Assembly (NCBI GenBank): GCA_028288675.1
Contig: JAQBNG010000085.1
Span: 1-55,928, forward strand
Length of the DNA: 55,928 nt
DNA from: Flavisolibacter sp.
GTDB lineage: Bacteria > Bacteroidota > Bacteroidia > Chitinophagales > Chitinophagaceae
Reading direction: 5' to 3'
Both the position numbers and the translations under genes were made by a program. The notes beneath the pieces are model-generated. The model did no database searches and was not told the DNA's origin. It saw only the letters and a list, made by a program, of their open reading frames with translations. Positions 37,216-55,263 of this stretch are shown here, one piece after another; position 1 is the stretch's first letter; each line of letters opens with the position of its first letter.

Positions 37216-37277
37216 TGCTTAGGAAATTTAAGAGTAAAACCTAAAATATATTAACAAATTCCTCTGTGCAACCCTTT

Positions 37278-37330
37278 AGGCATTGAATTTGTCCTTATTG
37301 GACTATTCAATGCCTTTTTTCATTCGGCCC
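37278..37330 (+). terminator. Intrinsic terminator after the T9SS gene
   Basis: AGGCATTGAA (37278-37287) with TTCAATGCCT (37316-37325) and an inner GTCC/GGAC stem, then TTTTTT. Confidence 0.88.
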
Positions 37331-37369
37331 GTTGAAGCCTATGGAAAACACCAATGGTCTTGAATATAG

Positions 37370-37385
37370 GGCTCCTTCGGGAGCC
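37370..37385. other. UUCG tetraloop hairpin GGCTCC-TTCG-GGAGCC
   Basis: Perfect 6-bp stem with TTCG loop in the spacer between the T9SS gene and the convergent flippase-like gene. No T tract on either strand, so probably not a terminator by itself. Confidence 0.6.
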
Positions 37386-37453
37386 TTCCTTAATTGCGGA
37401 TGCAGGATTTGAAAAGCCTGTCTGCCGGAAGGTTTGTGATCTCACAGCATTGT

Positions 37454-38374: not shown

Positions 38375-38547
38375 TATTGAATTAAATCCTGAAAGAAGAT
38401 GCAAATAAAGGAAAATGATTGAAGAAATAAATTTGACAGGTGAACTTTGGCCATTGAAATACAAAGGAGTTTCAGGTCAATATAAAACTTGCAAACGGAA
38501 ATTAAAGATTGTTATGCCTTTCTTCACAAAAATTCTTTCCTAAACTT

Positions 38548-38578
38548 TTGTCCGTTTAGTCTCATACCCATACTTTTG
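38548..38578 (+). promoter_or_regulatory. Promoter of the S10-spc operon
   Basis: TTG at 38548-38550, 20-nt spacer, exact TACTTTTG at 38571-38578, 30 nt before the rpsJ ATG. Best-spaced promoter in the window. Confidence 0.82.
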
Positions 38579-38608
38579 CACTCCCATTGTAAAAAATGGT
38601 GTTTGATT

Positions 38609-38914
38609 ATGTCACAACGAATCAGAATTAAACTTCAGTCTTACGACCATAACCTGGTTGATAAATCAGCAGAGAAAATTGTAAAGACTGTCCGCAGCAC
38701 AGGCGCAGTAGTAACAGGACCGATTCCTCTTCCTACACGTACTAAAATTTTTACGGTATTGCGTTCACCGCACGTAAACAAAAAAAGCCGCGAGCAGTTC
38801 CAGTTAGCTACACATAAACGCTTATTGGATATCTACACGTCGAGTTCAAGAACCGTAGACGCTCTTTCAAAGCTTGATTTGCCAAGTGGTGTGGAAGTAG
38901 AGATCAAAGCATAA
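38609..38914 (+). CDS. rpsJ: 30S ribosomal protein S10
   Basis: uS10, 101 residues, head of the 30S subunit and NusE in antitermination. I start at the ATG at 38609 ([20 protein letters not shown]), because the promoter overlaps the longer frame from 38489. [17 protein letters not shown] is conserved. First gene of the operon. It is followed by an unusually long 296-nt spacer. Confidence 0.98.
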
Positions 38915-39210
38915 ACCTCAAACCCCTAAAAGGGTGTTGAAAAACAGTTCTTATAAATAAAACATTTCTCATCTCTCAACGTATCGCTTTGGCGAAACAG
39001 AAAAGAGCTCTGAATCTAAACGGCTCTCTTTCCAATTTGGAATTAAGAGTTAACATATAAACAAGCCCTTCGAGGTTTGTTTGTCGCCGGTACTTCCGAA
39101 TCCCTTAAGGTGGATACAAAGGAAAAGGTCGGTTGATAAACCAGGATTGAAGACCCAATATTCCATGGGTCTGTCTTGTACAACCTTGCGGGGAGTAAAC
39201 CGCAAAGAAA
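38915..39210 (+). other. 296-nt structured spacer between rpsJ and rplC
   Basis: The region can form several hairpins: 38919-38940 (TCAAACCCCT with AGGGTGTTGA, mismatched), 39059-39082 (AAACAAGCC with GGTTTGTTT, one G-U pair), 39151-39172 (AGACCCA with TGGGTCT) and 39186-39205 (TTGCGG with CCGCAA), the last ending 5 nt before the rplC ATG. No gene. Could be a regulatory leader for the rest of the operon. Confidence 0.55.
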
Positions 39211-39828
39211 ATGAAAGGAATTATTGGTAAAAAAATTGGGATGACCAGCATCTTTGATGCGAATGGCAAGCAAACCGCTTGTACCATTATCGAAGCTGGG
39301 CCCTGCGTAGTTACCCAGGTTAAAACGCAGGAATCAGATGGCTACACGGCCTTACAGGTAGGCTTCGGTGACAAGAAAGAAAAGCATACGAACGCTTCTG
39401 CTAAAAATCACTTCGCTAAAGCCAACACTCCGGCTAAAAGTTACGTAAAAGAATTTCGCAACTCATCTCTCGAAAAAAATATCGGTGATACTATTACTGT
39501 TGACATATTCGCAGAAGGCGATAAAGTTGAAGTAGTGGGTACAACAAAAGGAAAGGGTTTTCAGGGTGTTGTAAAACGCCATGGTTTCTCTGGTGTTGGT
39601 GAAGCATCTCACGGTCAGCATGATCGGCAGAGAGCACCGGGTTCTATTGGTGGATCATCTTATCCTGCCCGTGTATTCAAAGGGATGCGCATGGCCGGCC
39701 GCATGGGCCAGGATAGAGTAAAAGTAAAAGGACTCCAGGTAGTAAAAATTTTCCCTGAGAAGAATTACATATTAATCAGTGGTGCTGTTCCGGGCCACAA
39801 TGGTTCAATCGTTTTAATCCAAAAGTAG
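39211..39828 (+). CDS. rplC: 50S ribosomal protein L3
   Basis: uL3, 205 residues, binds near the peptidyl transferase centre. [33 protein letters not shown] and the [11 protein letters not shown] loop are conserved. A 6-bp hairpin ends 5 nt before its ATG, which would affect initiation if it forms. Confidence 0.98.
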
Positions 39829-39884
39829 GGACATGCCATGGTGTGTCTTATAAAGAAGATGTACCGGGTTAAAAACAAATTATC

Positions 39885-40523
39885 ATGCAACTGAACGTTT
39901 TAAACATACAAGGACAAGAAACAGGCAGAACTGTTGAACTTCCTGAAGACATATTTGGCTTGGAACCTAATGACCACGCTATTTATTTAGCTGTAAAGCA
40001 ATATTTAGGAGCCCAGCGTCAGGGAACGCATAAGGTTAAAACCCGTGCAGAAGTTAAAGGTTCAAGCCGCAAATTACATAAGCAAAAAGGTACCGGTGGC
40101 TCTCGTAAGGGTAATATCCGTAATCCTTTATATAAAGGTGGCGGTACCGTTTTCGGACCTAAGCCGCATAAGTATGACATTAAGTTGAACCGTAAGGTGA
40201 AGGACTTAGCTAAAATGTCTGCTTTGTCTCATAAGGCTAAGGAAAATGCTATCATTATTGTTGAAGATGTAACATTAGATGTGCCTAAAACAAAAACATT
40301 CATGAACATCTTAAATAGCCTGAAAGTAGGTGATAAGAAATTGATGTTCGTAATGCCTGAGTATAATGATAACGTTTATATTTCTTCCCGTAATGTAGGA
40401 TCTGTTTTAACTACATTAATGAGTGATGTAAATACGTACGACCTGATTAATTCGGAAGTGTTAGTGTTAACCGAAAGCGCTGCGAAGATTTTTGCAAACG
40501 AAGAAGCGGAAGAAACCGCATAG
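39885..40523 (+). CDS. rplD: 50S ribosomal protein L4
   Basis: uL4, 212 residues, with the tunnel loop KLHKQKGTGGSRKGNIRNPL conserved. L4 is the autoregulator of the S10 operon in E. coli; whether that applies here is unknown. Preceded by a 56-nt spacer with a near-palindrome ACATGCCATGGTGTGT. Confidence 0.98.
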   Translation: MQLNVLNIQGQETGRTVELPEDIFGLEPNDHAIYLAVKQYLGAQRQGTHKVKTRAEVKGSSRKLHKQKGTGGSRKGNIRNPLYKGGGTVFGPKPHKYDIKLNRKVKDLAKMSALSHKAKENAIIIVEDVTLDVPKTKTFMNILNSLKVGDKKLMFVMPEYNDNVYISSRNVGSVLTTLMSDVNTYDLINSEVLVLTESAAKIFANEEAEETA

Positions 40524-40596
40524 TAATTAGCTGATTAGCCGATCTGATGATTTGCTGGTTAAGTTAGATTTTCAAATTTTCAAATTAGAGAAAGAA

Positions 40597-40896
40597 ATGA
40601 AACTTTCTGAAGTATTAATAAAACCGATTTTAACCGAAAAAGCAAATGCCCAGCAGGAAAGCCTGCGTCGTTATGCTTTTCGTGTGTCCCGTAAGGCAAA
40701 CAAACTGGAAATTAAAAAGGCAGTGGAAGACGTTTACGGCGTAACCATCACGGACGTAAATACGATCATGGTTCCGGGTAAAAGCAAAACCCGTCATACC
40801 AAGAAAGGGTTTACCAAAGGACAGAAGCAGGCTTACAAAAAAGCGTTGGTAACTGTAGCTGTCGGGGAAACAATTGATTTGTATAGCAATATCTAA
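40597..40896 (+). CDS. rplW: 50S ribosomal protein L23
   Basis: uL23, 99 residues, at the exit of the peptide tunnel. I start at the ATG at 40597 (MKLSEVLIKPILTEKAN); the longer frame from 40552 begins in repeat-like spacer words (TTTTCAAATTTTCAAATTAG). EIKKAVEDVYGVTITDVNT is conserved. Confidence 0.97.
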   Translation: MKLSEVLIKPILTEKANAQQESLRRYAFRVSRKANKLEIKKAVEDVYGVTITDVNTIMVPGKSKTRHTKKGFTKGQKQAYKKALVTVAVGETIDLYSNI

Positions 40897-40995
40897 GATC
40901 AGAAGATTACAAAAGCCATACGTCGAAATTTGGATTTTGAAATCTTGAAATAAACTAAGTATGGTCCGCAAGACCGCAAACCTTGCAAATTTTAT

Positions 40996-41835
40996 ATGGC
41001 ACTAAAAAAATATAAACCTGTTACAGCCGGTACTCGTTGGAGAATCGGTAACGCATACGCAGAGATCACAACCAATGAGCCTGAAAAGTCTTTGCTGGAA
41101 GTAAAAGGACGCACTGGCGGACGTAACTTCCAGGGCCGCAGGGCAATGCGTTACATTGGTGGGGGGCATAAGAAAGCCTACCGTGTAATTGATTTCAAGC
41201 GTAATAAAGCTGGGATTCCTGCTACGGTTGCAACAATTGAGTACGATCCGAACCGCACTACATTTATTGCCTTATTGCATTATGCAGATGGTGAAAAAAG
41301 ATATATCCTCGCTCCACAAGGTTTGCAGGTTGGCGCTACGGTTTTAAGTGGTGATAACATTGCTCCTGAACTAGGAAATGCATTACAGTTGAAAAGCATG
41401 CCTTTGGGTACTGTGGTCCATAACATCGAAATGCAGCCTGGCCAGGGTGGTAAGATTGCCCGGTCAGCCGGTGCATCTGCGCAGCTTTCTAACAAAGAAG
41501 AAAAGTATGCGATCTTAAAAATGCCAAGCGGCGAATTACGTAAAGTGCTTATCAATTGTTATGCAACAGTAGGTACTGCCAGTAATGGCGATCATCAACT
41601 GCAATCAATGGGTAAAGCAGGCCGTAATGTTTGGAAAGGTATTCGCCCCCGTGTTCGTGGTGTAGCCATGAACCCTGTAGATCACCCGATGGGTGGTGGT
41701 GAAGGCCGTGCCTCTGGCGGTCAGCCTCGCAGCAGAACTGGTCAATACTCCCGCGGATTAAAAACACGTACAAAAGGTAAGGGTAGCGATAAATTCATTA
41801 TCCAGCGTAAGAACGGAAAGAAGCTGGCGAAATAA
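40996..41835 (+). CDS. rplB: 50S ribosomal protein L2
   Basis: uL2, 279 residues, needed for subunit joining and peptidyl transferase activity. [20 protein letters not shown] contains the conserved active-region His. A small hairpin GCAAG/CTTGC (40968-40986) lies 9 nt before the ATG. Confidence 0.98.
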
Positions 41836-41907
41836 TGAGTGATGGGTAATCAGTAATGAATGCTCCTCGATCATAAATCAACAATCAGTAATTAGAAATA
41901 ATAACAC

Positions 41908-42177
41908 ATGGCTCGTTCAATTAAAAAAGGTCCTTATGTAGCAGCTCACCTGGAAGATAAAGTGGTAGCTATAAACGACGGCAAAAACAAAAAAGGCGTG
42001 ATCAAAACATGGAGCCGCCGTTCAACGATCACTCCTGATTTTGTAGGCCATACGTTTGCTGTGCACAACGGAAACAAATTTATTCCAGTGTATGTAACAG
42101 AATTCATGGTGGGGCATAAGTTAGGCGAATTCGCTCCTACCAGAAATTTCAGAGGACACTCAAGTAAGAAGGGTTAA
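41908..42177 (+). CDS. rpsS: 30S ribosomal protein S19
   Basis: uS19, 89 residues, in the 30S head, paired with S13. [19 protein letters not shown] and [15 protein letters not shown] are conserved. The 72-nt spacer after rplB has direct repeats of AATCAGTAAT. Confidence 0.98.
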
Positions 42178-42180
42178 TTG

Positions 42181-42205
42181 GTTAGGAGTTAGGAGTTAGG
42201 AGTTA
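42181..42205 (+). repeat. Tandem 7-bp repeat GTTAGGA
   Basis: GTTAGGA three times followed by a partial unit, in the rpsS-rplV spacer, before CCCCAAATACCAAACGCC words. Confidence 0.85.
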
Positions 42206-42249
42206 AGCAACCCCAAATACCAAACGCCAGACCCCAAACAAAATATAAA

Positions 42250-42588
42250 ATGGAAGCAGTAGCAAAACTGAGAAATTATCCGACATCACCCCGTAAGATG
42301 CGCTTGCTAGCAGATCTGATTCGCGGTATGAAAGTAGAAAAAGCGTTGGCCGAATTGGAATTCAATCCAAAGCATCCGTCAGTGCCTATGCGCAAGTTGG
42401 TTTTAAGTGCAATTAGTAACTGGAAGCAGAAGAATGAAGGTGGCGATGAAAGCCAGTTGATTGTAAAAACTATCATGGTAGATGGCGCAAGAACATTAAA
42501 GCGTATGCGTCCTGCACCACAGGGCCGAGGCTACCGTGTACGTAAAAGAAGCAATCACGTAACTGTAATTGTTGACGCAAAACCATAA
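42250..42588 (+). CDS. rplV: 50S ribosomal protein L22
   Basis: uL22, 112 residues, lines the exit tunnel with its beta hairpin ([20 protein letters not shown]). [20 protein letters not shown] opens it. Length is normal. Confidence 0.98.
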
Positions 42589-42608
42589 AAAAACAAAATC
42601 ACAACTTT

Positions 42609-42644
42609 CAAATCTCAAGCTACAACCTTGAAATTTGAGATTTG
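42609..42644 (+). repeat. Self-complementary words in rplV-rpsC spacer
   Basis: CAAATCTCAA (42609-42618) and TTGAGATTTG (42635-42644), exact 10-bp arms. Confidence 0.75.
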
Positions 42645-42668
42645 GTACTTGAAATTTAAAAATAAATC

Positions 42669-43535
42669 ATGGGTCAAAAAGCAAATCCAATTGGTAACAG
42701 GTTAGGCATCATCCGTGGATGGGAATCTAACTGGTATGGCAACAAAAAAGACTTTGCCATTAAGCTGATTGAAGATCACAAAATCAGAACTTATCTAAAT
42801 GCCCGTATCAGCAAAGGCGGTATTGCCAAAATTGTGATTGAAAGAACTTTAGGAAAGCTAATAATTACTATTCATACATCTAAGCCAGGTATTATCATCG
42901 GTAAGGGTGGTGGCGAAGTTGACCGGGTTAAAGAAGAGCTGAAAAAACTGACAGGTAAGGAAGACGTACAGATCAACATTCTTGAAATTCGTCGGCCTGA
43001 ATTGGATGCAATGATTGTAGGCGATACAATTGCCCGTCAGATTGAAAACCGTATAAACTTTAAACGTGCTACTAAAATGGCCATTGCTTCTGCACTTCGT
43101 ATGGGTGCTGAAGGAATTAAAGTTCAGTGTAGTGGTCGTTTGGGTGGTGCTGAAATTGCCCGTAGTGAAAAGTTCATGCAAGGCCGTGTTCCACTTCACA
43201 CCTTCCGTATGGATATTGATTATGCCAACGTGTTTGCACAAACCGTTTACGGTAAAATTGGTATCAAAGTTTGGATTTGCCGAGGTGAAATTTTAGGCAA
43301 GCGTGACCTTAATCCAAATTTCATTGGTGGTAAGGATGCCGGTCAAAGTATGGGGGAAAGAAGAGACAATCGTGGTGGTGATTTCGGTGGAAGACGTGAT
43401 GATCGTGGTGGAAGTGGTGGTGACCGCAGAGGCGGCGGCGGCCAAGGTGGAGGAAACTTCAACCGTGGTGGTGGTCAAGGTCAGGGAGGCGGTGGCCGTT
43501 CTGGTGGACAAGGCGGTGGCGGCGGACGCAGATAA
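42669..43535 (+). CDS. rpsC: 30S ribosomal protein S3 with RGG-like C-terminal tail
   Basis: uS3, 288 residues, at the mRNA entry site with helicase activity. The KH domain is seen at [20 protein letters not shown] and the S3 C-terminal domain at [20 protein letters not shown]. After about residue 225 it continues in a 60-residue tail of Gly, Arg, Asp, Gln and Asn ([20 protein letters not shown] and more), resembling RNA-binding RGG boxes. Many S3 proteins have tails, but one so Gly-rich is unusual. The repetitive DNA of the tail also appears as antisense shadow frames. Confidence 0.97.
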
Positions 43536-43652
43536 AGAGATTGGCAGTTTGCATTAAGCAATTGACAATTTTAAAAAGTTCAATAATTATAAAGAATGGT
43601 TCGAGTTTAGGGTTCAACCCAAAACTACAAACCACAAACTATAAACTAAGTT

Positions 43653-44075
43653 ATGTTACAGCCGAAAAGATCGAAGCACAGGAAGATGCAGAAAGGCCGC
43701 ATGAAAGGCGATGCGAAAAGAGGGTTTACTATCGCTTTTGGTTCATATGCACTGAAGACTTTGGATAGCCATTGGATAACTGACCGTCAGATTGAAGCTG
43801 CCCGTCAGGCGTTAACCCGTCATATGAAACGTGAGGGTAACGTATGGATCCGCATTTTTCCTGACAAGCCTATCACCAATAAGCCTGCAGAGGTGCGCAT
43901 GGGTAAGGGTAAAGGTAATCTTGAGTATTGGGCTGCTGTAGTAAAACCAGGCCGCATTCTTTTTGAGATTGACGGTGTGTCGGAAGAAGTAGCAAAAGGT
44001 GCTTTGCATCTAGCGGCAGGTAAGTTACCGGTAATGACAAAATTTGTTAAGCGTCGCGATTTAGAAGAGGCTTAA
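43653..44075 (+). CDS. rplP: 50S ribosomal protein L16
   Basis: uL16, 140 residues, near the A-site tRNA elbow. [19 protein letters not shown] and [20 protein letters not shown] are conserved. The 117-nt spacer before it contains GGGTTCAACCC and ACTACAAACCACAAACTATA words. Confidence 0.98.
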
Positions 44076-44100
44076 TCAATCATAGATAAAACTGATTCAC

Positions 44101-44310
44101 ATGTCAAAGACAGTAGATTTTAAAAAGAGCATTGAAAGTTTAAACGATCAGGATCTGACGGCTCGTATAAAAGAAGATGAAGCCCGTTTAAAAAAACTTG
44201 AATTCGCTCATGCTATTTCTCCACTGGAAAACCCGGTGAGCATTCGTAACCTGCGCAGAGAGTTAGCTCGTTTAAAAACAGAACTAAAGAAGAAACAACT
44301 TAGTGCATAA
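44101..44310 (+). CDS. rpmC: 50S ribosomal protein L29
   Basis: uL29, 69 residues, two-helix protein at the tunnel exit. The conserved [19 protein letters not shown] is present. Only 25 nt after rplP, without word repeats. Confidence 0.96.
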
Positions 44311-44342
44311 TTATCCGCTTAATGCGGACAAAGCTTAATAAC

Positions 44343-44642
44343 ATGGCTGAAAATACAACAGAAATAACAACAACAAGCGCTTCAGCGGAAGAACGCAACC
44401 TCCGTAAAACAAGGATTGGCGTTGTTACCAGCAATAAGATGACGAAGACCATTACCATCAAAGTGGAACGGAAAGTAAAGCATCCGATCTATGGTAAGTT
44501 CGTAAAAAAATCAACCAGCTTTCATGCCCACGATGAAAAGAATGAAGCGAACATTGGTGACATCGTTCGTATCATGGAAACACGCCCTTTGAGCAAAACG
44601 AAGCGTTGGAGATTGGTGGAAGTAATTGAGAAAGTTAAGTAA
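44343..44642 (+). CDS. rpsQ: 30S ribosomal protein S17
   Basis: uS17, 99 residues from the ATG at 44343 ([19 protein letters not shown]). The N-terminus is a Thr/Ser/Glu-rich extension of about 20 residues before the conserved [19 protein letters not shown] core. A longer frame from 44322 is unlikely. Confidence 0.96.
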
Positions 44643-44657
44643 TTCGATTATAAATGT

Positions 44658-44700
44658 TGAATTATGAATGATGAATGTTGAGTTCATAGTTCATAATTCA
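44658..44700 (+). repeat. Self-complementary words in rpsQ-rplN spacer
   Basis: TGAATTATGAA (44658-44668) with TTCATAATTCA (44690-44700), exact 11-bp arms; the whole spacer is GAATGATGAATGTTG-like words. Confidence 0.8.
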
Positions 44701-44718
44701 TGATTCAAAATTAAAAAG

Positions 44719-45087
44719 ATGATCCAGCAAGAATCTCGTTTGGCCGTAGCGGATAACAGTGGTGCTAAAGAAGTGCTTTGTATTCGTGTACTGGGAAACA
44801 GCGGCCAGCGTTATGCCGGTGTAGGTGATAAAATTGTAGTTACTGTAAAAGATGCAATTCCTGCTGGCGGTATCAAAAAAGGTACTGTTGCTAAAGCAGT
44901 GATTGTTAGAACCACAAATAAGTTACGTCGTAAGGATGGTTCTTATATCCGTTTCGATGATAATGCTGTAGTTATCTTAAATGCATCTGACGAGCCAAGA
45001 GGTACCCGTATTTTTGGGCCAGTTGCCCGTGAGCTTCGGGATAAGGGATACATGAAAATTATTTCGTTGGCCCCGGAAGTACTATAA
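44719..45087 (+). CDS. rplN: 50S ribosomal protein L14
   Basis: uL14, 122 residues, at the 30S-50S interface. [20 protein letters not shown] and [17 protein letters not shown] are conserved. Confidence 0.98.
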
Positions 45088-45167
45088 AATATTGGTTAGT
45101 AAACTGGTTAGTTAGTTGATTAGTAATGAGCCGGTGAACGAATCAACTGATCGATAAATCAACGAAA

Positions 45168-45186
45168 TTCCTGGCAGTATCAGGAA
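45168..45186 (+). ncRNA. Hairpin element A upstream of rplX
   Basis: TTCCTG GCAGTAT CAGGAA, a 6-bp stem with 7-nt loop, ending 17 nt before the rplX ATG. The same loop and spacing recur before rplR (47725-47743) with one compensatory stem change. Proposed as an mRNA element; no database match is claimed. Confidence 0.6.
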
Positions 45187-45203
45187 GTAAAACAGAAATA
45201 AAA

Positions 45204-45533
45204 ATGAAGACAAGATTTAAACCTAAGTACAACATCAGAAAAGGCGATCAGGTGGTCGTTATTACTGGTGATGACAAGGATCTGAAAAAACCGCGTCTTG
45301 TAAAAGAGGTTTTAGTAGAAGATGGTAAAGTAATTGTTGAAGGTGCTAATATTATCACCAAACATACTAAGCCTTCTGCACAGAATACTAAAGGTGGTAT
45401 CATTAAGAAAGAAGCGCCAATGCAAATCAGCAATGTTATGTTGTGGGATGGCAAGCAAGCTACCAAAGTGAAGCGTGAAGAAAAAGAAGGTAAAAAAGTT
45501 CGAATATCTAAAAAATCGGGAGGAATCATATAA
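45204..45533 (+). CDS. rplX: 50S ribosomal protein L24
   Basis: uL24, 109 residues, an assembly initiator. [19 protein letters not shown] is the KOW motif. Its stop codon overlaps the rplE start by one base (TAATG), so translation is coupled. The hairpin element 17 nt before its ATG is shared with rplR. Confidence 0.98.
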
Positions 45534-46105
45534 TGGCAACTACAAATCCTCGGCTACGAACAAAATATAAGGACGAAGTGATACCTGCTTTAATGAAGCG
45601 TTTTTCATATAAAAGCATAATGCAGGCTCCTCGTTTAGAGAAGATCGCAATCAACCGTGGTGTTAATGGCGCGGTGAATGATAAAAAATTGGTGGACATC
45701 GCTTTGGACGAACTAACTACAGTTACTGGTCAAAAGGCAATTGCCACGATGTCTAAGAAAGATATATCCAACTTTAAGCTTCGAAAGAACATGCCCATTG
45801 GTGCAAGAGTTACTTTACGCGGCGAGAAGATGTATGAATTCTTAGATCGTTTGATTGCTGTTGCACTTCCCCGTGTACGTGACTTTAAAGGTGTAAATGA
45901 AAAGTCATTTGATGGTCGCGGTAATTACACGATGGGTGTTACCGAGCAAATCATTTTTCCTGAGATTGATATTGACAAAGTAAGCCGCATTACTGGTATG
46001 GACATAACTTTTGTTACTACCGCTCAAACAGATGAAGAGGCCTACGAGTTATTAAGAGAGTTGGGAATGCCTTTCAGGAACGCAGTGAAAAAAGTAAGTG
46101 AATAA
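45533..46105 (+). CDS. rplE: 50S ribosomal protein L5
   Basis: uL5, 190 residues, binds 5S rRNA and contacts P-site t[23 protein letters not shown] and [19 protein letters not shown] are conserved. Translationally coupled to rplX. Confidence 0.98.
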
Positions 46106-46171
46106 TCGGCTTGTGATCTGGTTCAAACTGGTATCATTGATCTAAATAGAAAAAAAATTTAAAATTGAATT

Positions 46172-46441
46172 ATGGCTAAAGAATCAGTAAAGGCCAGGCA
46201 ACGTAAAAGAGAGAAAATGGTAGCTCAATATGCTGAAAAAAGAGATGCATTGAAGGTGGCCGGCGACTGGAAAGCTTTGGATGAAATGCCAAGGAATTCT
46301 TCCAGGGTACGTTTGAAAAACCGTTGCCAGATGACGGGTCGTCCAAGAGGATACAGCCGTTATTTTGGAGTATCGCGTATTGCCTTACGTGATATGGCTT
46401 TAAATGGTACAATACCTGGCTTGAAGAAAGCAAGCTGGTAG
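46172..46441 (+). CDS. rpsN: 30S ribosomal protein S14, zinc-independent type
   Basis: uS14, 89 residues, long C-minus form: only one Cys ([19 protein letters not shown]) and no CxxC zinc knuckle. Confidence 0.97.
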
Positions 46442-46443
46442 AA

Positions 46444-46472
46444 ACAATTGGCAACTTGCAATAGGCAATTGT
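46444..46472 (+). repeat. Self-complementary words in rpsN-rpsH spacer
   Basis: ACAATTG and CAATTGT around GCAACTTGCAATAGG; the same GCAATAGGCA word occurs after rpsL. Confidence 0.6.
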
Positions 46473-46513
46473 CAGTAGAAAATAAATTGTAAATAAATAA
46501 ACTTATCCAATTG

Positions 46514-46539
46514 CTCCGAAGAAGTCGGGGTGTAGGAGG
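46514..46539 (+). promoter_or_regulatory. Hairpin and strong Shine-Dalgarno of rpsH
   Basis: CTCCGA/TCGGGG hairpin (46514-46530, one G-T pair) followed by AGGAGG at 46534-46539, 8 nt before the ATG: the only full Shine-Dalgarno at ideal spacing that I found in the operon. Confidence 0.7.
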
Positions 46540-46547
46540 GAAATAAT

Positions 46548-46946
46548 ATGGTAACAGATCCTATTGCAGATTTTTTAACAAGAATTCGTAATGCGCAAAT
46601 GGCTGGACACAGAATCGTTGAGATTCCAGCTTCTAACCTAAAAAAGCGTATGACAGAAATTTTGTACAATCAAGGTTATATTTTAAAGTACAAGTTTGAA
46701 GAGGATAACAAACAAGGCCTGATCAAAATAGCCCTGAAGTATGATGCCGCTACAAAGCAGGCAGCCATCCATAGTTTAGAAAGAGTAAGCCGTCCCGGTT
46801 TGCGTCACTACTCAAAGCCAGCCGATTTTCGTCGTGTGAAAAATGGTTTGGGTATCGCTATCCTTTCTACTTCTAAGGGAGTGTTAACCGATAAAGAAGC
46901 AAAAACACAGAATGTAGGCGGCGAAGTTCTTTGCTACATTTATTAA
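46548..46946 (+). CDS. rpsH: 30S ribosomal protein S8
   Basis: uS8, 132 residues, central domain assembly protein. MVTDPIADFLTRIRNAQMAG and GLGIAILSTSKGVLTDKEA are conserved. S8 is the spc operon repressor in E. coli. Here its ATG has a complete AGGAGG, while other genes of the operon lack one, so this gene may be initiated in a different way. Confidence 0.98.
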   Translation: MVTDPIADFLTRIRNAQMAGHRIVEIPASNLKKRMTEILYNQGYILKYKFEEDNKQGLIKIALKYDAATKQAAIHSLERVSRPGLRHYSKPADFRRVKNGLGIAILSTSKGVLTDKEAKTQNVGGEVLCYIY

Positions 46947-46966
46947 TGTGCAAATGTGACAATTTG

Positions 46967-47070
46967 AAAATTTGAAAATGTTTTCGGATTGTCGTTAAAT
47001 ACTAAAGTTGAATGATAATTTAAGTTCTCTATACGGCAACTGAACACGTTCAACCTAATTTTCAAATTTT
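46967..47070 (+). repeat. Self-complementary words in rpsH-rplF spacer
   Basis: AAAATTTGAAAAT (46967-46979) with ATTTTCAAATTTT (47058-47070), exact 13-bp arms. AATTTCAAATTT words continue up to the rplF ATG. Confidence 0.8.
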
Positions 47071-47092
47071 TTAATTTTCAAATTTCAAATTT

Positions 47093-47647
47093 ATGTCTCG
47101 TATAGGTAAAGCTCCGATATCAGTTCCAGGCGGTGTCACAATTTCTGTAGGCAGCGATAATGTAGTAACTGTAAAAGGACCAAAAGGCGAATTGAAACAA
47201 CCGATTGACCGTGATATTAAGGTGGAGGTAAAAGATGGTCAGATTAATGTTACACGCCCAACAGATCAAATTCGTCACCGTGCCCTGCATGGTTTATCAA
47301 GAGCCCTTGTAGCCAACCTTGTAAAAGGTGTTACAGATGGTTATACAAAAAAGTTGGAGTTGGTAGGTGTAGGTTTTAAAGCAGCTAATACAGGCAATGT
47401 ATTAGACCTTGCTTTAGGCTATTCTCACAACATCATATTCGATATTCCAAAAGAATTAAAACTGGCTACAGAGCAGTTAAAGGGTCAAAACCCTACAATT
47501 ACTTTGGAAGGTAACGACCGCCAGTTAATCGGACAAGTAGCAGCTAAAATTCGCAGCCTGCGTAAACCCGAGCCTTACAAAGGAAAAGGTGTTCGTTACT
47601 CAGGTGAAATTGTTCGTAAGAAAGCTGGTAAAGCGGCAGGTAAGTAA
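47093..47647 (+). CDS. rplF: 50S ribosomal protein L6
   Basis: uL6, 184 residues, near the sarcin-ricin loop and GTPase centre. MSRIGKAPISVPGGVTISV and KPEPYKGKGVRYSGEIVRKK are conserved. Confidence 0.98.
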   Translation: MSRIGKAPISVPGGVTISVGSDNVVTVKGPKGELKQPIDRDIKVEVKDGQINVTRPTDQIRHRALHGLSRALVANLVKGVTDGYTKKLELVGVGFKAANTGNVLDLALGYSHNIIFDIPKELKLATEQLKGQNPTITLEGNDRQLIGQVAAKIRSLRKPEPYKGKGVRYSGEIVRKKAGKAAGK

Positions 47648-47651
47648 ATCG

Positions 47652-47709
47652 TTAATTGGTTAATTAGGTTATTAGGTTTTGAAACCTTTGATCGTAATTA
47701 ACCAATTAC
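47652..47709 (+). repeat. Self-complementary words in rplF-rplR spacer
   Basis: TTAATTGGTTAATTA (47652-47666) with TAATTAACCAATTAC (47695-47709), 14 of 15 pairs, with an inner AGGTTT/AAACCT dyad. Confidence 0.85.
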
Positions 47710-47724
47710 CCAATCAACAAAAAG

Positions 47725-47743
47725 TCCCTGGCAGTATCAGGGA
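47725..47743 (+). ncRNA. Hairpin element B upstream of rplR
   Basis: TCCCTG GCAGTAT CAGGGA, ending 16 nt before the rplR ATG. Partner of element A at 45168-45186: same 7-nt loop, a C-G pair in place of T-A at the fifth stem position. Confidence 0.6.
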
Positions 47744-47759
47744 ACTAAATAAAAGTCAA

Positions 47760-48119
47760 ATGAGAACAAGTGCAAAATTATCACGGAGACAAAACATCCG
47801 TTATCGCATCCGGGCTAAAATTGCCGGTACAGCCCAAAAGCCACGGCTTTCTGTATTTCGTAGCAATACAGAAATTTATTGCCAGCTGATTGATGATGTT
47901 AACAGCGTGACGTTAGCGGCAGCTTCTTCAAAGGAAAAGGACATCAAGGCACAAACTGGAAACAAGGTTGAAAAAAGCAAACTCGTTGGTCAGTCCTTAG
48001 CCCGTAAGGCTAAAGAATTAGGGTTAGAAACCGTGGTTTTTGACCGTGGCGGAAACTTATATCATGGCCGTGTGAAAGCAGTAGCTGACGGTGCAAGAGA
48101 AGGCGGACTAGTATTTTAA
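47760..48119 (+). CDS. rplR: 50S ribosomal protein L18
   Basis: uL18, 119 residues from the ATG at 47760 ([20 protein letters not shown]); the longer frame from 47679 is made of spacer words and hairpin B. Binds 5S r[21 protein letters not shown] and [20 protein letters not shown] are conserved. Confidence 0.97.
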
Positions 48120-48133
48120 GATTGCAGATTACA

Positions 48134-48197
48134 GATTTTAGATTTTCTAAGGTCTGACTGTAATAAAAGCGAATCTGAAATCAAAAAATCTGAAATC
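48134..48197 (+). repeat. Self-complementary words in rplR-rpsE spacer
   Basis: GATTTTAGATTTT (48134-48146) with AAAATCTGAAATC (48185-48197), 12 of 13 pairs. Confidence 0.75.
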
Positions 48198-48210
48198 GTA
48201 AATCGATATA

Positions 48211-48729
48211 ATGGCAAAAGCAATTTTAAACAGAGTAAAAGCAAACGATCTTGAACTAAAAGATAAGGTGGTTGCTATCAATCGTGTAGTGAAAACTACC
48301 AAAGGTGGCCGTACGTTCTCTTTCTCTGCATTGGTAGTAGTAGGTAATGAAGCCGGCGTGGTAGGTCATGGCTTAGGCAAGGCTAAAGAAGTACAGGAAG
48401 CTATTACAAAAGGTATCGAAGATGCCAAGAAAAATCTCATCAAAGTTCCAGTAATGCACGGAACTATTCCTCACGACCAGTTAGCCAAAGTGGGCGCTGC
48501 TAAAGTACTTATAAAACCAGCTGCACATGGTACGGGTGTAATTGCAGGAGGTTCTATGCGTGCGGTGTTGGAAAGCGCCGGTATTACAGATGTATTGGCG
48601 AAATCATTAGGCTCTGCTAATCCGCATAATGTGGTTAAAGCAACTTTTGAAGCATTGGCACTTTTACGTGAGCCTATTGCTGTCTCTAAAACAAGAAGGG
48701 TTAGTTTAAAAAAAGTATTTAACGGATAA
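48211..48729 (+). CDS. rpsE: 30S ribosomal protein S5
   Basis: uS5, 172 residues, at the mRNA channel with a role in accuracy. [20 protein letters not shown] and [20 protein letters not shown] are conserved. The following spacer is built from CAGTTGGCAGTTGGCAGT words (48736-48768). Confidence 0.98.
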
Positions 48730-48819
48730 GAAAACAGTTGACAGTTTGCAGTTGGCAGTTGGCAGTGGGTAACCTTCTGAAATGGTAACAGTAAACCGAA
48801 AACGGTAAACTACTTATAA

Positions 48820-49005
48820 ATGAAAAAGATAAAAGTCACTTTAATAAAAAGCCCTATTGACAGACCTAAGCGTCAGAAATTAACGCTGCAGGCTTTAGGC
48901 TTGAACAAAATGAATGCTACCAGAGAGGTAGAAGCCACTCCACAAATTTTAGGTATGGTTCGCACAGTGGAACATTTGATCGCTGTGGAAGAAGTAAATG
49001 CTTAA
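48820..49005 (+). CDS. rpmD: 50S ribosomal protein L30
   Basis: uL30, 61 residues. MKKIKVTLIKSPIDRPKRQK and LNKMNATREVEATPQILGMV are conserved. Confidence 0.97.
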   Translation: MKKIKVTLIKSPIDRPKRQKLTLQALGLNKMNATREVEATPQILGMVRTVEHLIAVEEVNA

Positions 49006-49022
49006 GAAATTAATAATTAGTA

Positions 49023-49096
49023 ATTAAAAATTAAGGCGAGGATTTAATTATTCATTCTTAATTCTTAATTCATCAAAGCGAGGGGAGATAAACCCC
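49023..49096 (+). repeat. Self-complementary words and hairpin in rpmD-rplO spacer
   Basis: ATTAAAAATTAAG (49023-49035) with CTTAATTCTTAAT (49057-49069), 12 of 13 pairs. Then GGGG AGATAAA CCCC (49082-49096), 20 nt before the rplO ATG; compare the GGGGAGTAAACC hairpin before rplC. Confidence 0.65.
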
Positions 49097-49116
49097 GTAA
49101 GTAAAAATCAAAAAAA

Positions 49117-49566
49117 ATGAAACTACACAATTTACGTCCTGCAAAAGGCGCGGTACACAAAGAAAAAAGATTAGGCCGAGGTGAAGCATCCGGTAAAGGA
49201 GGCACATCTACCAAAGGTAATAAAGGCCAGGAAGCACGTACTGGTTATCAACGCAAACTTGCACACGAAGGTGGTCAAATGCCAATCCAGCGCCGGGTTC
49301 CCAAGCGTGGATTTAAGAATTTTAATCGCATTGAGTATAAAGTATTCAATTTAGGCCAGATTGACCAGTTGGTTGAAAAGTATGGCATCCAGGAATTCTC
49401 CTTGGAAACCCTTTATACAAATGGCTTGATTAGCCAAACTGATCGGGTGAAAATTTTAGGAAACGGAGAGCTCAAAACTAAGTTGACCTTTAAGGTTAAT
49501 GCTATGAGCGACAAAGCAAAGCAGGCCATCGAAACCGCTGGCGGCTCAATAGAGAAAGTGAAGTAA
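49117..49566 (+). CDS. rplO: 50S ribosomal protein L15
   Basis: uL15, 149 residues. KRLGRGEASGKGGTSTKGNK and GQMPIQRRVPKRGFKNFNR are conserved. Last ribosomal protein gene of the operon. A terminator follows directly. Confidence 0.98.
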   Translation: MKLHNLRPAKGAVHKEKRLGRGEASGKGGTSTKGNKGQEARTGYQRKLAHEGGQMPIQRRVPKRGFKNFNRIEYKVFNLGQIDQLVEKYGIQEFSLETLYTNGLISQTDRVKILGNGELKTKLTFKVNAMSDKAKQAIETAGGSIEKVK

Positions 49567-49583
49567 TTTTCCTTAAATTGCAA

Positions 49584-49607
49584 GGCGCATTCAGTGCGTC
49601 TTTTTTT
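49584..49607 (+). terminator. Intrinsic terminator between rplO and secY
   Basis: GGCGCA (49584-49589), loop TTCAG, TGCGTC (49595-49600, one G-T pair) and seven T. It would cut secY off from most operon transcripts. Confidence 0.75.
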
Positions 49608-49628
49608 GTTACAAACTAATTTTCCCTC

Positions 49629-50972
49629 GTGAAGAATTTAATCAAGAACTTAAAGAATATCTGGAGTATAGAGGAGTTGCGAAGCAAAATTCTTTTTACC
49701 CTTCTTCTTTTATTCATTTACCGCTTAGGAACATTTATTGTTTTGCCTGGTATAGATCCTGAAGGGTTATCTGCTCTTAATGACCAGACGAACAGCAATG
49801 GTATCCTTGGACTCATCAATACATTTGCTGGTGGTGCTTTTTCGCAGGCATCCATTTTTGCGTTAGGTATCATGCCTTATATCTCTGCTTCCATCTTTAT
49901 TCAATTGATGACTGTATTGGTTCCTCAGTTTCAAAAGATGCAGAAAGAAGGTGAAAGCGGCCGTAAAAAAATCAACCAGTGGACACGCTACCTCACTATA
50001 GCAGTTACTGTTGTTCAGGCTTCTGCTTATGTAGCTTACCTGCGCCAGATCACTCAACAGAGTGGGGGCATCTTACCCGGTTATGTTGATTTCTTCTGGT
50101 TATCAACCGTAGTCGTGCTTACAGCGGGAACCATGTTTGTCATGTGGATGGGAGAGAAGATCACCGACAAAGGATTAGGTAATGGTACTTCCCTTATCAT
50201 CATGGTTGGTATTCTTGCTCGTCTGCCACAAGCCTTTATGCAGGAGTTAGGAAGTAAGTCTACACGCAGTGGCCAAATACTGATCTTCATCGTAGAAATT
50301 GCTATCCTGATTGCAATTATTATGGGTTGTATTTTGTTGGTACAGGGAGTTAGAAAAATACCAGTGAACTATGCCAAGCAAATTGTTGGCAACAGGCAGT
50401 TCGGTGGTGCAAGACAATTCTTACCAATTAAAGTAAACAGCGCAGGTGTAATGCCAATCATTTTTGCACAAGCTGTATTGTTTTTGCCGACTTTGTTTAA
50501 CCTAACAGGAACACAAACGGGGCAAGGTATATCAGCTGTGTTCCAGGACCACTCTAATATTTACTACATGCTGGTCTATGCTGTAGTAGTAATTGGATTT
50601 ACATTCCTGTATACTGCCTTAATATTTAATCCTAAACAAATTGCCGACAATCTAAAGCAGAATAACGGGTTTATTCCGGGAGTAAAGCCTGGTCAGCCTA
50701 CCGCTGATTATATCGGTGGTATCATGGATAGAATTACATTGCCAGGCGCTTTTCTTTTGGCCTTTGTAGGTATTCTCCCGGGTATTGCACAGCGTCTCGG
50801 TGTACAGCCAAGTTTCTCAACATTCTTTGGCGGAACGTCATTGCTGATTATGGTTGGTGTTATCCTGGATACGCTGCAGCAAATTGAAACACAATTGTTG
50901 ATGCGCCAATACGATGGTTTGATGAAAAGCGGACGTATTCAAGGCAGAACTGTAACACAGGCATCATACTAA
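49629..50972 (+). CDS. secY: Preprotein translocase subunit SecY
   Basis: The 447-residue channel subunit of the Sec translocon, ten membrane segments. It starts with GTG (KNLIKNLKNIWSIEELR). The plug region is FAGGAFSQASIFALGIMPYI. The cytoplasmic loop before segment 9 has NPKQIADNLKQNNGFIPGVK. TGG-like ends are normal. It lies between two intrinsic terminators, suggesting partial uncoupling from the ribosomal genes. A weak TAATTTTC lies 11 nt before the GTG. Confidence 0.97.
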   Translation: MKNLIKNLKNIWSIEELRSKILFTLLLLFIYRLGTFIVLPGIDPEGLSALNDQTNSNGILGLINTFAGGAFSQASIFALGIMPYISASIFIQLMTVLVPQFQKMQKEGESGRKKINQWTRYLTIAVTVVQASAYVAYLRQITQQSGGILPGYVDFFWLSTVVVLTAGTMFVMWMGEKITDKGLGNGTSLIIMVGILARLPQAFMQELGSKSTRSGQILIFIVEIAILIAIIMGCILLVQGVRKIPVNYAKQIVGNRQFGGARQFLPIKVNSAGVMPIIFAQAVLFLPTLFNLTGTQTGQGISAVFQDHSNIYYMLVYAVVVIGFTFLYTALIFNPKQIADNLKQNNGFIPGVKPGQPTADYIGGIMDRITLPGAFLLAFVGILPGIAQRLGVQPSFSTFFGGTSLLIMVGVILDTLQQIETQLLMRQYDGLMKSGRIQGRTVTQASY

Positions 50973-51027
50973 ATACTAAGTTAGAAGTACGAGGTACGAA
51001 AGAATTGAATTGAATTATAACAACTGA

Positions 51028-51058
51028 AACCTGGTGAGAATACTTACCAGGTTTTTTT
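51028..51058 (+). terminator. Intrinsic terminator of secY
   Basis: AACCTGGT (51028-51035) with ACCAGGTT (51046-51053) and a T tract. Confidence 0.9.
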
Positions 51059-51107
51059 ATCAGTAGGGCGTGCAATTAGCATATCCTTTTGGATGAATGT
51101 AGAAACT

Positions 51108-51908
51108 ATGATTTATTATAAAACAGAAGAGCAAATAGAAACAATGCGGCATAGTGCTTTGCTGGTCAGCGGCACACTCGCCGAAGTAGCAAAGATTTTA
51201 AAGCCAGGGTTGAAAACAATAGATATTGATCGCTTAATTGGAAGCATCATTAAAGACCACGGGGGCATTCCCTCATTTTTGAATTTTCATGGCTACCCTT
51301 TCAACTCCTGCATCTCGGTGAATGACGTAGTAGTGCATGGCTTTCCGAATAAAGAAGAATTGAAGGAAGGTGATATTGTTTCCATTGACATTGGCGTTTT
51401 TAAAAATGGCTATCATGGCGATCATGCCTATACGTTCATGATAGGAAAACCCTCTGACGAAATAGTGAAGTTGGTGAAAATTACCAAAGAATCTTTATAC
51501 AAAGGCATTGAAAAGGCAGTAGCCGGGAACCGTATTGGCGATGTGGCTTTTGCTATTCAGGAGCACACGGAAAAAAAGAATGGTTATGGTGTGGTGAGAG
51601 AGTTAGTAGGGCACGGTTTAGGCAAAAGCATGCACGAAGACCCGCAGGTTCCCAACTACGGTAAGCGGGGTTCTGGTACGGTGATGAAAGAAGGTTTGGT
51701 AATTGCAATTGAGCCAATGATCAACATGGGAAAGAAGGAAGTGTATACCGAAGATGATGGCTGGACAGTGCGCACAAAAGACGGCAAGCCTTCTGTACAC
51801 TTTGAACATGATGTATGTATAAGAAAAGGCAAGGCTGATGTACTTTCTAACTATTCTGAAATAGAAAAAGCAGAAAAGGAAAATCAGGCTTTGTTTTCAG
51901 ATTATTAG
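51108..51908 (+). CDS. map: Methionine aminopeptidase type I
   Basis: Removes N-terminal Met from new proteins. I start at the ATG at 51108 (MIYYKTEEQIETMRHSALLV, 266 residues); an ATG at 51093 adds five residues. Metal ligands are seen in DIGVFKNGYHGDHAYTF, HGLGKSMHEDPQVPNY, AIEPMIN and HFEHDVCI. In Bacteroidota, map after secY is usual, but infA, rpmJ, rpsM, rpsK, rpsD, rpoA and rplQ, which normally follow, are not here. Confidence 0.96.
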   Translation: MIYYKTEEQIETMRHSALLVSGTLAEVAKILKPGLKTIDIDRLIGSIIKDHGGIPSFLNFHGYPFNSCISVNDVVVHGFPNKEELKEGDIVSIDIGVFKNGYHGDHAYTFMIGKPSDEIVKLVKITKESLYKGIEKAVAGNRIGDVAFAIQEHTEKKNGYGVVRELVGHGLGKSMHEDPQVPNYGKRGSGTVMKEGLVIAIEPMINMGKKEVYTEDDGWTVRTKDGKPSVHFEHDVCIRKGKADVLSNYSEIEKAEKENQALFSDY

Positions 51909-51910
51909 TG

Positions 51911-51939
51911 TAAGCCCTCAGTCGAGGGCTTAATTTTTT
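51911..51939 (+). terminator. Intrinsic terminator of map
   Basis: TAAGCCCTC AGTC GAGGGCTTA (51911-51932) then ATTTTTT. Confidence 0.9.
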
Positions 51940-51943
51940 ACTG

Positions 51944-53179
51944 ATGGAAAAGAAAAGATTAATTGTTATTGGTGGTGGTGCTGCGGGTTTTTTTTGTGCC
52001 ATAAATGCCGCAAGGATGAACACTGGTTTACAGGTAACAATCCTTGAAAAAACTTCTAAGCTTTTATCAAAAGTAAAAGTTTCAGGCGGCGGAAGATGCA
52101 ACGTTACCCATGCAAAATTTGATATTATTGAAATGAGCAAGTGCTATCCACGCGGTCAAAATTTCGTCAAAAGAACGTTCCACCAGTTCTTTACAACAGA
52201 TACCATTCAATGGTTTGAGAAACGTGGTGTGAAAATCAAAGCAGAGAAGGATGGCCGCATGTTTCCTGATACCGATTCATCGCAAACTATTATTGATTGT
52301 TTGATGAAGGAAGCAAATTTGTACCGTGTAGAGATACGGATGAATGCGGAGGTAAAGGAATTAGCAGTTGACAATTTGCAATTTGCAATTCAGGTTGCGA
52401 ATAACCCATTGCTTATTGCGGATTTTGTAGTCCTCGCTACCGGTGGTTATCCAAAAGCGACGATGTTTGACTGGCTAAAAAACCTTGGACATTCATTTTC
52501 AGAACCAGTTCCTTCCTTATTTACATTCAATTTGCCTAAGCACCCAATAACAGCTTTAATGGGTGTAAGTGTTGAGAAAGCCAGGGTAAAAATTGCAGGA
52601 ACAAAGCTAATGGAGGAAGGCCCTGTTTTAATTACACATTGGGGGCTGAGTGGTCCCGCTATACTGCGTTTGAGCGCCTGGGGAGCAAGAGAGCTATCAG
52701 TTAAGAGTTATGAGTTTAAAGTTCATATAAACTGGATGCCGGAGTATAATGAACAAGGCTTAAAAGAAGTATTTATTCAAGCCCGTTCTATACAATCAAC
52801 AAAGAAAATAAATAATTACAACCTTGGAAATTTGCCTAACAGGTTATGGCAATTTTTGTTGGAAGCATCGGGTGTAAAAGACGATATGCGCTTCGCAGAT
52901 TTGCCTGCTAAAATTGAAAATGTGCTCATTAAAAATCTTGTTGATTACGTAGTAGAAGTAAAAGGCAAAACAACTTTTAAGGAAGAATTTGTAACCAGTG
53001 GCGGTGTTAATTTAAGTGAAGTTGATGCTAATACAATGATGAGTAAAAAACATCCAAACCTGTTTTTTGCCGGCGAAGTTTTAGATGTAGATGGCATCAC
53101 CGGCGGCTTTAATTTCCAACATGCATGGACAAGTGGGTGGGTAGCGGCCAATACAATCGCACAAACACTCTGCTTATAA
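51944..53179 (+). CDS. NAD(P)/FAD-dependent oxidoreductase, HI0933/BaiN family
   Basis: A 411-residue flavoprotein. FAD-binding Rossmann motif LIVIGGGAAGFFCAINAAR at the N-terminus, then KVKVSGGGRCNVTHAKF, VVLATGGYPKATMFDWL and near the C-terminus FAGEVLDVDGITGGFNFQHA, all typical of the HI0933/BaiN family. Substrate unknown for most members. Two in-frame stretches consist of the words found in spacers: TTGACAATTTGCAATTTGCA (52367-52393 region) and GTTAAGAGTTATGAGTTTAA (52698-52720 region), which encode variable loops. Independent gene after a terminator. Confidence 0.92.
   Translation: MEKKRLIVIGGGAAGFFCAINAARMNTGLQVTILEKTSKLLSKVKVSGGGRCNVTHAKFDIIEMSKCYPRGQNFVKRTFHQFFTTDTIQWFEKRGVKIKAEKDGRMFPDTDSSQTIIDCLMKEANLYRVEIRMNAEVKELAVDNLQFAIQVANNPLLIADFVVLATGGYPKATMFDWLKNLGHSFSEPVPSLFTFNLPKHPITALMGVSVEKARVKIAGTKLMEEGPVLITHWGLSGPAILRLSAWGARELSVKSYEFKVHINWMPEYNEQGLKEVFIQARSIQSTKKINNYNLGNLPNRLWQFLLEASGVKDDMRFADLPAKIENVLIKNLVDYVVEVKGKTTFKEEFVTSGGVNLSEVDANTMMSKKHPNLFFAGEVLDVDGITGGFNFQHAWTSGWVAANTIAQTLCL
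52361..52735 (+). repeat. Oligonucleotide-word islands inside the flavoprotein gene
   Basis: GCAGTTGACAATTTGCAATT at about 52364 and CAGTTAAGAGTTATGAGTTT at about 52698; both match spacer words (CAGTTGACAGTTTGCAGTTG at 48736). Confidence 0.6.
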
Positions 53180-53223
53180 TATTACATCAATGAAAACCAT
53201 TGCATTGGAGCTGTTAAACAAAA

Positions 53224-53792
53224 CTACTTACAGACGTGGTTAGATGTCAAATTAACGGTTGTATCAAATCTTTTCTCCATCACTTTATTATAAGCTGCTG
53301 AATCGCCCCTTGGAATTGATAAGGATTGCCAGTCATCTCCTTTTAGCCATTTACCTACATACACAATTTGTCCTACATGATAACTGTAATGTGCCAGTTG
53401 CCGGTTGATGGCATCCATCGCTAATAAAGGTTGCGAACGAATGGAAACGGTTTTCAATAAATTACCACCGGTTAGCGATTCTAAAGTACCGAGGAAAACA
53501 TTCCAGCCTTCTTCCCATAATTGTAAAATGCTTCCTTTACTTAGGTTTTGTACTTCAAATTCAGCCTCTCGTCTGCGCCATTTTTTCTCACCGTCTTCGG
53601 TTAAAAATCAGTCCGGCGGCTAAGCATATTGCCATGCAAATGCTGAACAATTATAGCAATACTGGTAGAGGCTTTATTGGGTTGCAAAAGCATTTCTGCA
53701 TCGTTCAATTGATCAAATGTTTTATCGCCTAAGGCTTTGTATTCTTTTACACGGTTGATAGTAGAGGATAAGAATTCAAAAGCAAGGTTCAT
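53224..53792 (-). pseudogene. DUF1572/DinB-superfamily gene with a one-base frameshift
   Basis: Two frames on the minus strand form one protein of about 189 residues. The first runs from 53792 (MNLAFEFLSSTINRVKEYK) and ends after SRRTDF; the second picks up with LTEDGEKKWRRREAEFEVQN and runs through SLTGGNLLKTVSIRSQPLLA and INRQLAHYSYHVGQIVYVGK to 53224. This matches DUF1572, a DinB-like four-helix metal-binding family, with the His residues of HLHGN and HYSYHVGQ in place. The break is at the A5 run 53603-53607 (T5 on the coding strand); T6 would restore frame. True lesion or sequencing error. Confidence 0.88.
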
Positions 53793-53899
53793 GTAGTTAT
53801 TATTGAATAGGCAAAATAAAACTATTGTTCAAAATTTATTCTGACAAAGAAAATTATGACATTTTAAAACCTATGTTCCTCACCTGTTGGCAGGGGACG

Positions 53900-53907
53900 T
53901 ATATTTG
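53900..53907 (+). promoter_or_regulatory. Candidate purA -7 promoter box
   Basis: TATATTTG, exact TAnnTTTG, followed by CCGCC, 19 nt before the purA ATG. No well-spaced TTG seen. Confidence 0.6.
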
Positions 53908-53926
53908 CCGCCGTTAATAAATATTT

Positions 53927-55189: not shown

Positions 55190-55211
55190 CCAGAAAAATA
55201 GTTGTGAAAAT

Positions 55212-55241
55212 TTGGAGGATTAAAATCCTTGTCTAAATTTT
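55212..55241 (+). promoter_or_regulatory. Candidate promoter of the acidic-protein gene
   Basis: TTG at 55212-55214, 19-nt spacer, TAAATTTT at 55234-55241 (one mismatch), 22 nt before the ATG. Confidence 0.5.
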
Positions 55242-55263
55242 ACAGCGATAATTATAAATAGCT

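Follow-up and report, generated by a model that had tools for sequence, protein, structure and literature searches.

Why does a single ribosomal-protein operon carry two nearly identical hairpins, each directly in front of a gene? We studied a stretch of 55,928 nucleotides (the window) in which one such hairpin precedes rplX and another precedes rplR. The original prediction described them as twins whose loops are identical and whose stems differ by a compensatory change at one pair (T-A in one, C-G in the other), and proposed a shared mRNA element. The sequences and positions are exactly as described (Table 1), and so are the distances to the start codons: the hairpins end 17 nt 5' of the rplX ATG and 16 nt 5' of the rplR ATG. 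The predicted folds have energies of -7.0 and -9.4 kcal/mol for the two hairpins, with an extra G-U pair that closes a 5-nt loop. The 15-mer that is common to both hairpins, CCTGGCAGTATCAGG, occurs twice in the 4.74-Mb assembly, at these sites only. In the same genome, a covariance model of the hairpin scored the rplX and rplR copies at 33.4 and 32.3 bits, and no further match exceeded 20.6 bits among the 150 of 2522 first-look candidates that were scored.

Table 1. Positions in the window of the two hairpins and of the genes behind them.
Feature	Coordinates	Strand	Sequence or family	Remark
Hairpin before rplR	47725..47743	+	TCCCTGGCAGTATCAGGGA; stem TCCCTG/CAGGGA, loop GCAGTAT	family-wide copy
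Hairpin before rplX	45168..45186	+	TTCCTGGCAGTATCAGGAA; stem TTCCTG/CAGGAA, loop GCAGTAT	most likely derived; in some genus members
rplR (uL18)	47760..48119	+	Pfam PF00861	gene behind the family-wide copy
rplX (uL24)	45204..45533	+	Pfam PF17136	gene behind the copy that is most likely derived
rplE (uL5)	45533..46105	+	product uL5 (Pfam)	one-base overlap of its start codon with the rplX stop

The surroundings of the hairpins had also been remarked upon. AATCAAC words do precede both of them, but these words fall within or next to inverted repeats in the AT-rich spacers and, by eye, are not kept in relatives. The A-rich DNA behind the stem is seen, again by eye, in the inspected spacers of the window and of its relatives alike. 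Several of the operon's long spacers are filled by long, AT-rich, imperfect inverted repeats (window 46945-47092, 47653-47708, 44647-44711, and 48120-48204); the long operon spacers of relatives hold different words and look equally repetitive.

To survey the operon, we searched 195 genomes from the window's own genus, family, and order with the window's uL5 protein, and 178 of them matched. From the matches listed, we took operon stretches of 140 genomes, in the order of listing (a few near the end were skipped). The stretches were chosen around rplE, and their genes were placed by tblastn. The window's family accounts for 108 of the stretches, with rplR found in 101 of these, and the other 32 loci are from the order's other families. 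Named genomes place the window in the Chitinophagaceae; the nearest is Terrimonas pollutisoli, with 82% identity in uL6, and very near records are perhaps absent from the set.

Gapped 9-mers were counted in all of the operon's 21 spacers but one (rplX-rplE, with too few examples), by a procedure that is blind to the hairpin finding. The top of this count is GGCAGNATC before rplR, which is present in 66 of the 101 rplF-rplR spacers of the family; in a shuffled control, with one set per spacer, the maximum was 4. Requiring this core plus at least 3 bp of stem outside the closing G-C gave 76 sense matches in the 140 stretches: 65 before rplR, nine before rplX, one before rplE, and one elsewhere (inside rplE, at locus L118). 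The stem filter dropped one of the 66 core matches at rplR (L091, with a stem of only 2 bp beyond the G-C). As controls, the reverse strand gave two matches and the reversed sequence gave none. In all 65 of the rplR copies, the last stem base lies 12-21 nt (median 15) before the start codon. The loop is fixed but for one position, which is U, A, or C; within the alignment of these matches (A1), which was chosen by pattern, this conservation holds by construction, while the 9-mer count is free of that pattern. Because 35 of the 65 copies have in-frame stops, the hairpin is unlikely to be coding, and the rplR copy is placed in untranslated sequence ahead of the start codon.

The stem varies and stays paired. 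Across 74 distinct sequences, 96.4% of the pair cells are paired, 109 cells are double-changed (versus 33.4 in shuffled alignments), and the covariation score is 0.651 (versus 0.279). None of 500 shuffles reached the observed number of double-changed cells or the observed score, and all six slid registers were lower on both. Double changes occur in five of the six stem pairs, but 155 of the 500 shuffles also reach five, so the number of pairs is not above the shuffles; the sixth pair is the closing G-C, which is invariant and hence uninformative on covariation. On a FastTree phylogeny built from nine other ribosomal proteins, changes number at least 11, 7, 14, and 26 for the four stem pairs that flank the invariant G-C on its outer side, and 20 for the variable loop base. 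The pair next to the closing G-C is C-G in 35 cases, U-A in 30, and G-C in one, so each change at this pair alters both of its sides. Covariation beyond the single pair of the original prediction is therefore present at rplR, both in the shuffle tests and on the tree.

These patterns also bear on whether the element is RNA or DNA. As the sequence is an inverted repeat, it could in principle be a DNA operator or a chance repeat. However, the stem letters vary with pairing kept, the orientation is fixed (65 sense matches at rplR against the two reverse-strand matches in all 140 stretches), and the repeat is kept across the family; the covariation in particular contradicts this reading, to which we give almost no credence. 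A loop that is fixed on the sense strand and a stem with compensatory changes point to an RNA element instead.

The copy before rplX has a different history. In the window's genus, it is present in eight of 14 fetched relatives (nine of 15 with the window), and the rplR copy is present in all 12 of the 14 in which rplR was found. Outside the genus, the rplX copy was seen in one genome among the 140 stretches (L064). Between this copy and the start codon there are 19-47 nt at the other nine loci, a looser spacing than at rplR, in part because of small intervening hairpins (by eye). As the rplX copy is confined to part of the genus plus L064 and is loosely spaced, while the rplR copy is family-wide, the rplX copy is most likely derived. 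The shared mRNA element of the original prediction, with conservation at both sites, is thus borne out across the family at rplR (65 of 101 loci, double changes in the stem, and a constrained loop) and more weakly at rplX.

Other features were noticed ahead of rplX. Five genus members that lack a GCAGNAU copy there (L039, L043, L046, L047, and L050) have another hairpin, whose loop is GTTGGAAT-like and whose stems differ. In many relatives (L123, L125, L126, and L128-L137), the rplN-rplX spacer contains a TAnnTTTGC word, which we take to resemble the Bacteroidota promoter box. The word TTGCNGCCC is found before rplX in 21 of 106 family spacers.

Two further copies were each seen in a single genome. 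In L070, an extra copy lies 14 nt before rplE (uL5). In L338, an extra copy lies 21 nt before the third gene of an rpmB-rpmG group. The product of this gene is a DUF4295 protein (Pfam) that matches the chain "50S ribosomal protein L38" of PDB 7jil (E = 2.6e-5).

To ask where else the hairpin occurs, we trained a covariance model (R1) on alignment A1, so that its matches share the core by design but their genomic place is free. With strict filters, 191 of 394 family genomes matched. We fetched 40 of the listed match places, which belong to 39 genomes (G109 had already been sampled), and 37 of the 40 lie 13-18 nt before rplR; the other three are two matches inside reading frames and the one before the bL38 gene in L338. 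In a set of 14 genomes, there was a match before rplR in each (with rplR recognised by eye from its protein). We viewed 28 of the 38 matches listed for this set: 14 precede rplR, one precedes the bL38 gene, 12 are in long frames, and one (L363) is outside long frames, without a gene close behind. When R1 was run on six whole genomes, we viewed six of the 16 weaker matches, and each fell within a reading frame, was antisense to one, or had lost the core. Across the class, with strict filters and E <= 0.01, 10 of 395 genomes matched; the six matches outside the family are all inside open frames, as is a second match in one family genome (G045). Overall, 65 rplR, nine rplX, and one rplE site among the 76 sense matches, and 38 of the 40 places fetched genome-wide, are upstream of ribosomal-protein genes.

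The genome-wide data are relevant to another possibility, that the hairpin aids initiation by offering a landing site or insulation ahead of the start codon and is read by the ribosome or by a general RNA-binding protein. The constant distance to the start codon and the A-rich DNA behind the stem would suit such a role, and so would the phylum (Bacteroidota), in which Shine-Dalgarno pairing is hardly used, or absent, according to passages of PMC9976891 and PMC10931766. However, an aid of this kind should be common, and the matches that we viewed away from rplR are nearly all in reading frames or have an incomplete core; nor would one expect the letters of the loop to be fixed. We consider this role quite unlikely.

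In a neighbouring clade (with Taibaiella and Flavipsychrobacter among the named genomes), a different structure occupies the same place before rplR: a long form, CGGUAGC-stem-AGCCCGUAA. It was found in 14 family stretches, and there are 16 distinct sequences if two named loci are included. Its inner stem is 94.8% paired, with a covariation score of 0.506 versus 0.158 for shuffles (0 of 500 as high); six of its 11 pairs have double changes, which 113 of the 500 shuffles also reach. On the tree, the 14 long forms fall into a single clade (support 62) that also contains L113, a locus with neither form. The short forms, meaning those like the window's, all fall within an 83-tip clade that lacks any long form (support 94), except for L114, which branches outside both clades. 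By these patterns, 21 of the 101 family loci have neither form (L091 being counted as short), and neither form was found in any of the 32 loci from the order's other families. Among 80 named loci, the short form precedes rplR in 19 (17 with GGCAG and two, from Sediminibacterium, with GGCCG), including Terrimonas, Ferruginibacter, and Chitinophaga; four have the long form, four Saprospiraceae-like loci have a third motif, and 53 have none of these. A few of the short- or long-form named loci are titled as other groups (e.g., L189 and L231). The third motif, CTTGGGTTTGG-stem-CACTAAG, is found just before rplR in L207, L209, L216, and L225, and is perhaps another uL18 leader.

A strong hairpin (below -17 kcal/mol) lies between rplF and the element in eight of the 14 long-form loci, and the word TANNTTTG is present in two of the 14. 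We infer that a transcript may end, and a new one start, between rplF and the long form. The strong hairpins might also be taken to favour a site of RNase cleavage or protection, serving processing or stability, that parts the rplX-rplF section from the rplR section, and the window's two copies do flank rplX-rplF. But most of the family members with the element have it at rplR only (nine rplX copies versus 65), so that no segment is flanked, and a cut site would not need a fixed distance to the start codon. A processing site seems improbable to us.

The fixed loop, the sense strand, the fixed distance to the start, the near-restriction to ribosomal-protein genes, and the presence of another structure in a related clade suggest that the hairpin is a protein-binding mRNA control element that works like a ribosomal leader. 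From the sequence data, we put the probability of this at a little over one half (roughly 0.52). The original prediction had left a choice between a regulator, an RNase, and initiation control; the position of the element and its near-restriction to ribosomal-protein genes lead us to favour a regulator that would act at initiation. If so, an excess ribosomal protein would bind the GCAGNAU hairpin, and, with the stem ending about 15 nt short of the start codon, the complex would collide with the 30S subunit as it loads at rplR. This would lower the translation of rplR and, by coupling, of the genes behind it. Through the rplX copy, the same ligand would also control uL24 and uL5, the rplE gene possibly being reached from the overlapping rplX by translational coupling. 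The element would then be a 19-nt, testable candidate control site in a phylum with hardly any Shine-Dalgarno pairing at translation start, and the extra copies before other ribosomal-protein genes would be a natural experiment on the growth of a regulon.

Within the ribosomal-leader reading, the position of the family-wide copy favours the product of the gene directly behind it, uL18, as the ligand, with a chance that we judge to be somewhat short of even. Extra copies at uL5, and possibly at uL24-uL5, would fit with 5S particle logic. The copy in L338 weakens this argument, as bL38 is described in a passage of PMC10618245 as lying beside uL6 and uL14, and not 5S rRNA. Should uL18 prove to be the ligand, it would act as an autoregulator without a counterpart in the literature that we examined; our literature search for a uL18 leader found no report.

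Alternatively, the same kind of element could respond to a different product of the operon, uS8 being the likeliest, or else uS5, uL30, or uL15. In E. coli, uS8 is the known repressor of the spc operon and binds at the start of rplE (as given in part of PMC10931766). That operator resembles the hairpin in lying in the same operon, with the control point within it, and copies near rplE are found in two lineages here; the extra copies at rplX and rplE speak for this alternative. On the other hand, the family-wide site is before rplR (65 copies, versus nine at rplX and one at rplE), two genes behind rpsH, and by eye the hairpin is unlike 16S h21, which we take to be the uS8 site, in two of these genomes. 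We view another ligand as unlikely. Mimicry of rRNA occurs in some ribosomal leaders but is not required of them. We searched for GGCAGNATC and its parts in rRNA stretches of six genomes (L263 provided only 720 bases, and the homologous 23S segment was available in three); the 5S and 16S segments were compared by eye only. The sole match at a homologous place, GCAGTATCC in the 23S rRNA of two genomes, reads GTGGTATCC in a genome of the same genus, so we set this match aside.

We compared the element with known systems. With Rfam 15, there was no match at the gathering score in window 36000-55928, and at E <= 3 there were two weak matches in window 38300-51200, both away from the hairpins. At E <= 1, there were none in the long-form loci L133 and L141, nor in L176, which has a variant hairpin. 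Intrinsic terminators are also short hairpins between genes, but here the DNA behind the stem is A-rich, without a T run (by eye), and the stem is 12-21 nt before a start codon. The closest likeness is to the r-leaders, which Eckert and Weinberg (2020, PMC7247131) describe as small, covarying, lineage-limited structures before ribosomal-protein genes. Both the short form and the long form are conserved, covarying structures of this kind: each is small, lies directly before a ribosomal-protein gene, and occurs in one lineage, with unrelated structures in related lineages. They differ in the place of the rplR hairpin within a long operon and in its spread to other genes. Our comparison covers the 20 new leaders in Table 1 of that paper, which lists its 35 earlier leaders in a supplement. 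Those from Bacteroidia and Flavobacteria are for L13, S4, S15, and S16, and the table has no leader for L18, L24, or rplR.

The rplR hairpin is not the only candidate structure in this operon. Before rplC (uL3; window 39139-39207), we noticed GGATTGA, a variable stem, and TGTC, followed by a possible second stem (TTGCGG..CCGCAA). The motif is present in 58 of 98 loci, and 47 of the 58 have a helix of at least 4 bp, versus 33% of half-swapped controls; the stem between the fixed words has 42 distinct arm pairs in the 47, which are still complementary. For the second stem, the excess over the control is small (a helix of at least 4 bp in 19 of 41, versus 32%). Before rplF (uL6; window 47007-47054), TTAAG..CTGAAC lies inside a covarying outer stem, which is GTTGAA..TTCAAC in the window. 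For form b of this element, 39 of 48 loci have an outer stem of at least 5 bp (mean of 11 and largest of 18 in shuffles), and for form a, seven of 10 do (3.4 in shuffles, largest 6); the inner helix is not much above control (25 of 78 versus 24%). Before rplO (uL15; window 49078-49102) are GCGAG, a GGGG..CCCC hairpin, and GTAAGT, with the same flanks around other stems elsewhere. The pattern GCGAG-hairpin-GUNAGU occurs in 65 of 100 family loci, or in 79 with a looser pattern. In the order's other families, the rplC, rplF, and rplO patterns were found in 0 of 25, 0 of 32, and 0 of 29 loci, respectively.

Given structured elements before rplC, rplF, and rplO, the operon may be controlled gene by gene. 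More speculatively, the family could have replaced the one-repressor control of S10-spc with separate leaders within the operon, each ahead of one of several large-subunit genes (uL3, uL6, uL18, and uL15). The uL18 leader would then be portable, having been copied before uL24-uL5, uL5, and, in a different operon, bL38 to give a small regulon built from a 19-nt hairpin. We would sooner bet against this scenario than for it.

Finally, a terminator-like hairpin with a T run lies between rplO and secY (window 49584-49607), and the word GCGTCNTTT is common to 45 of the 98 rplO-secY spacers in the family.
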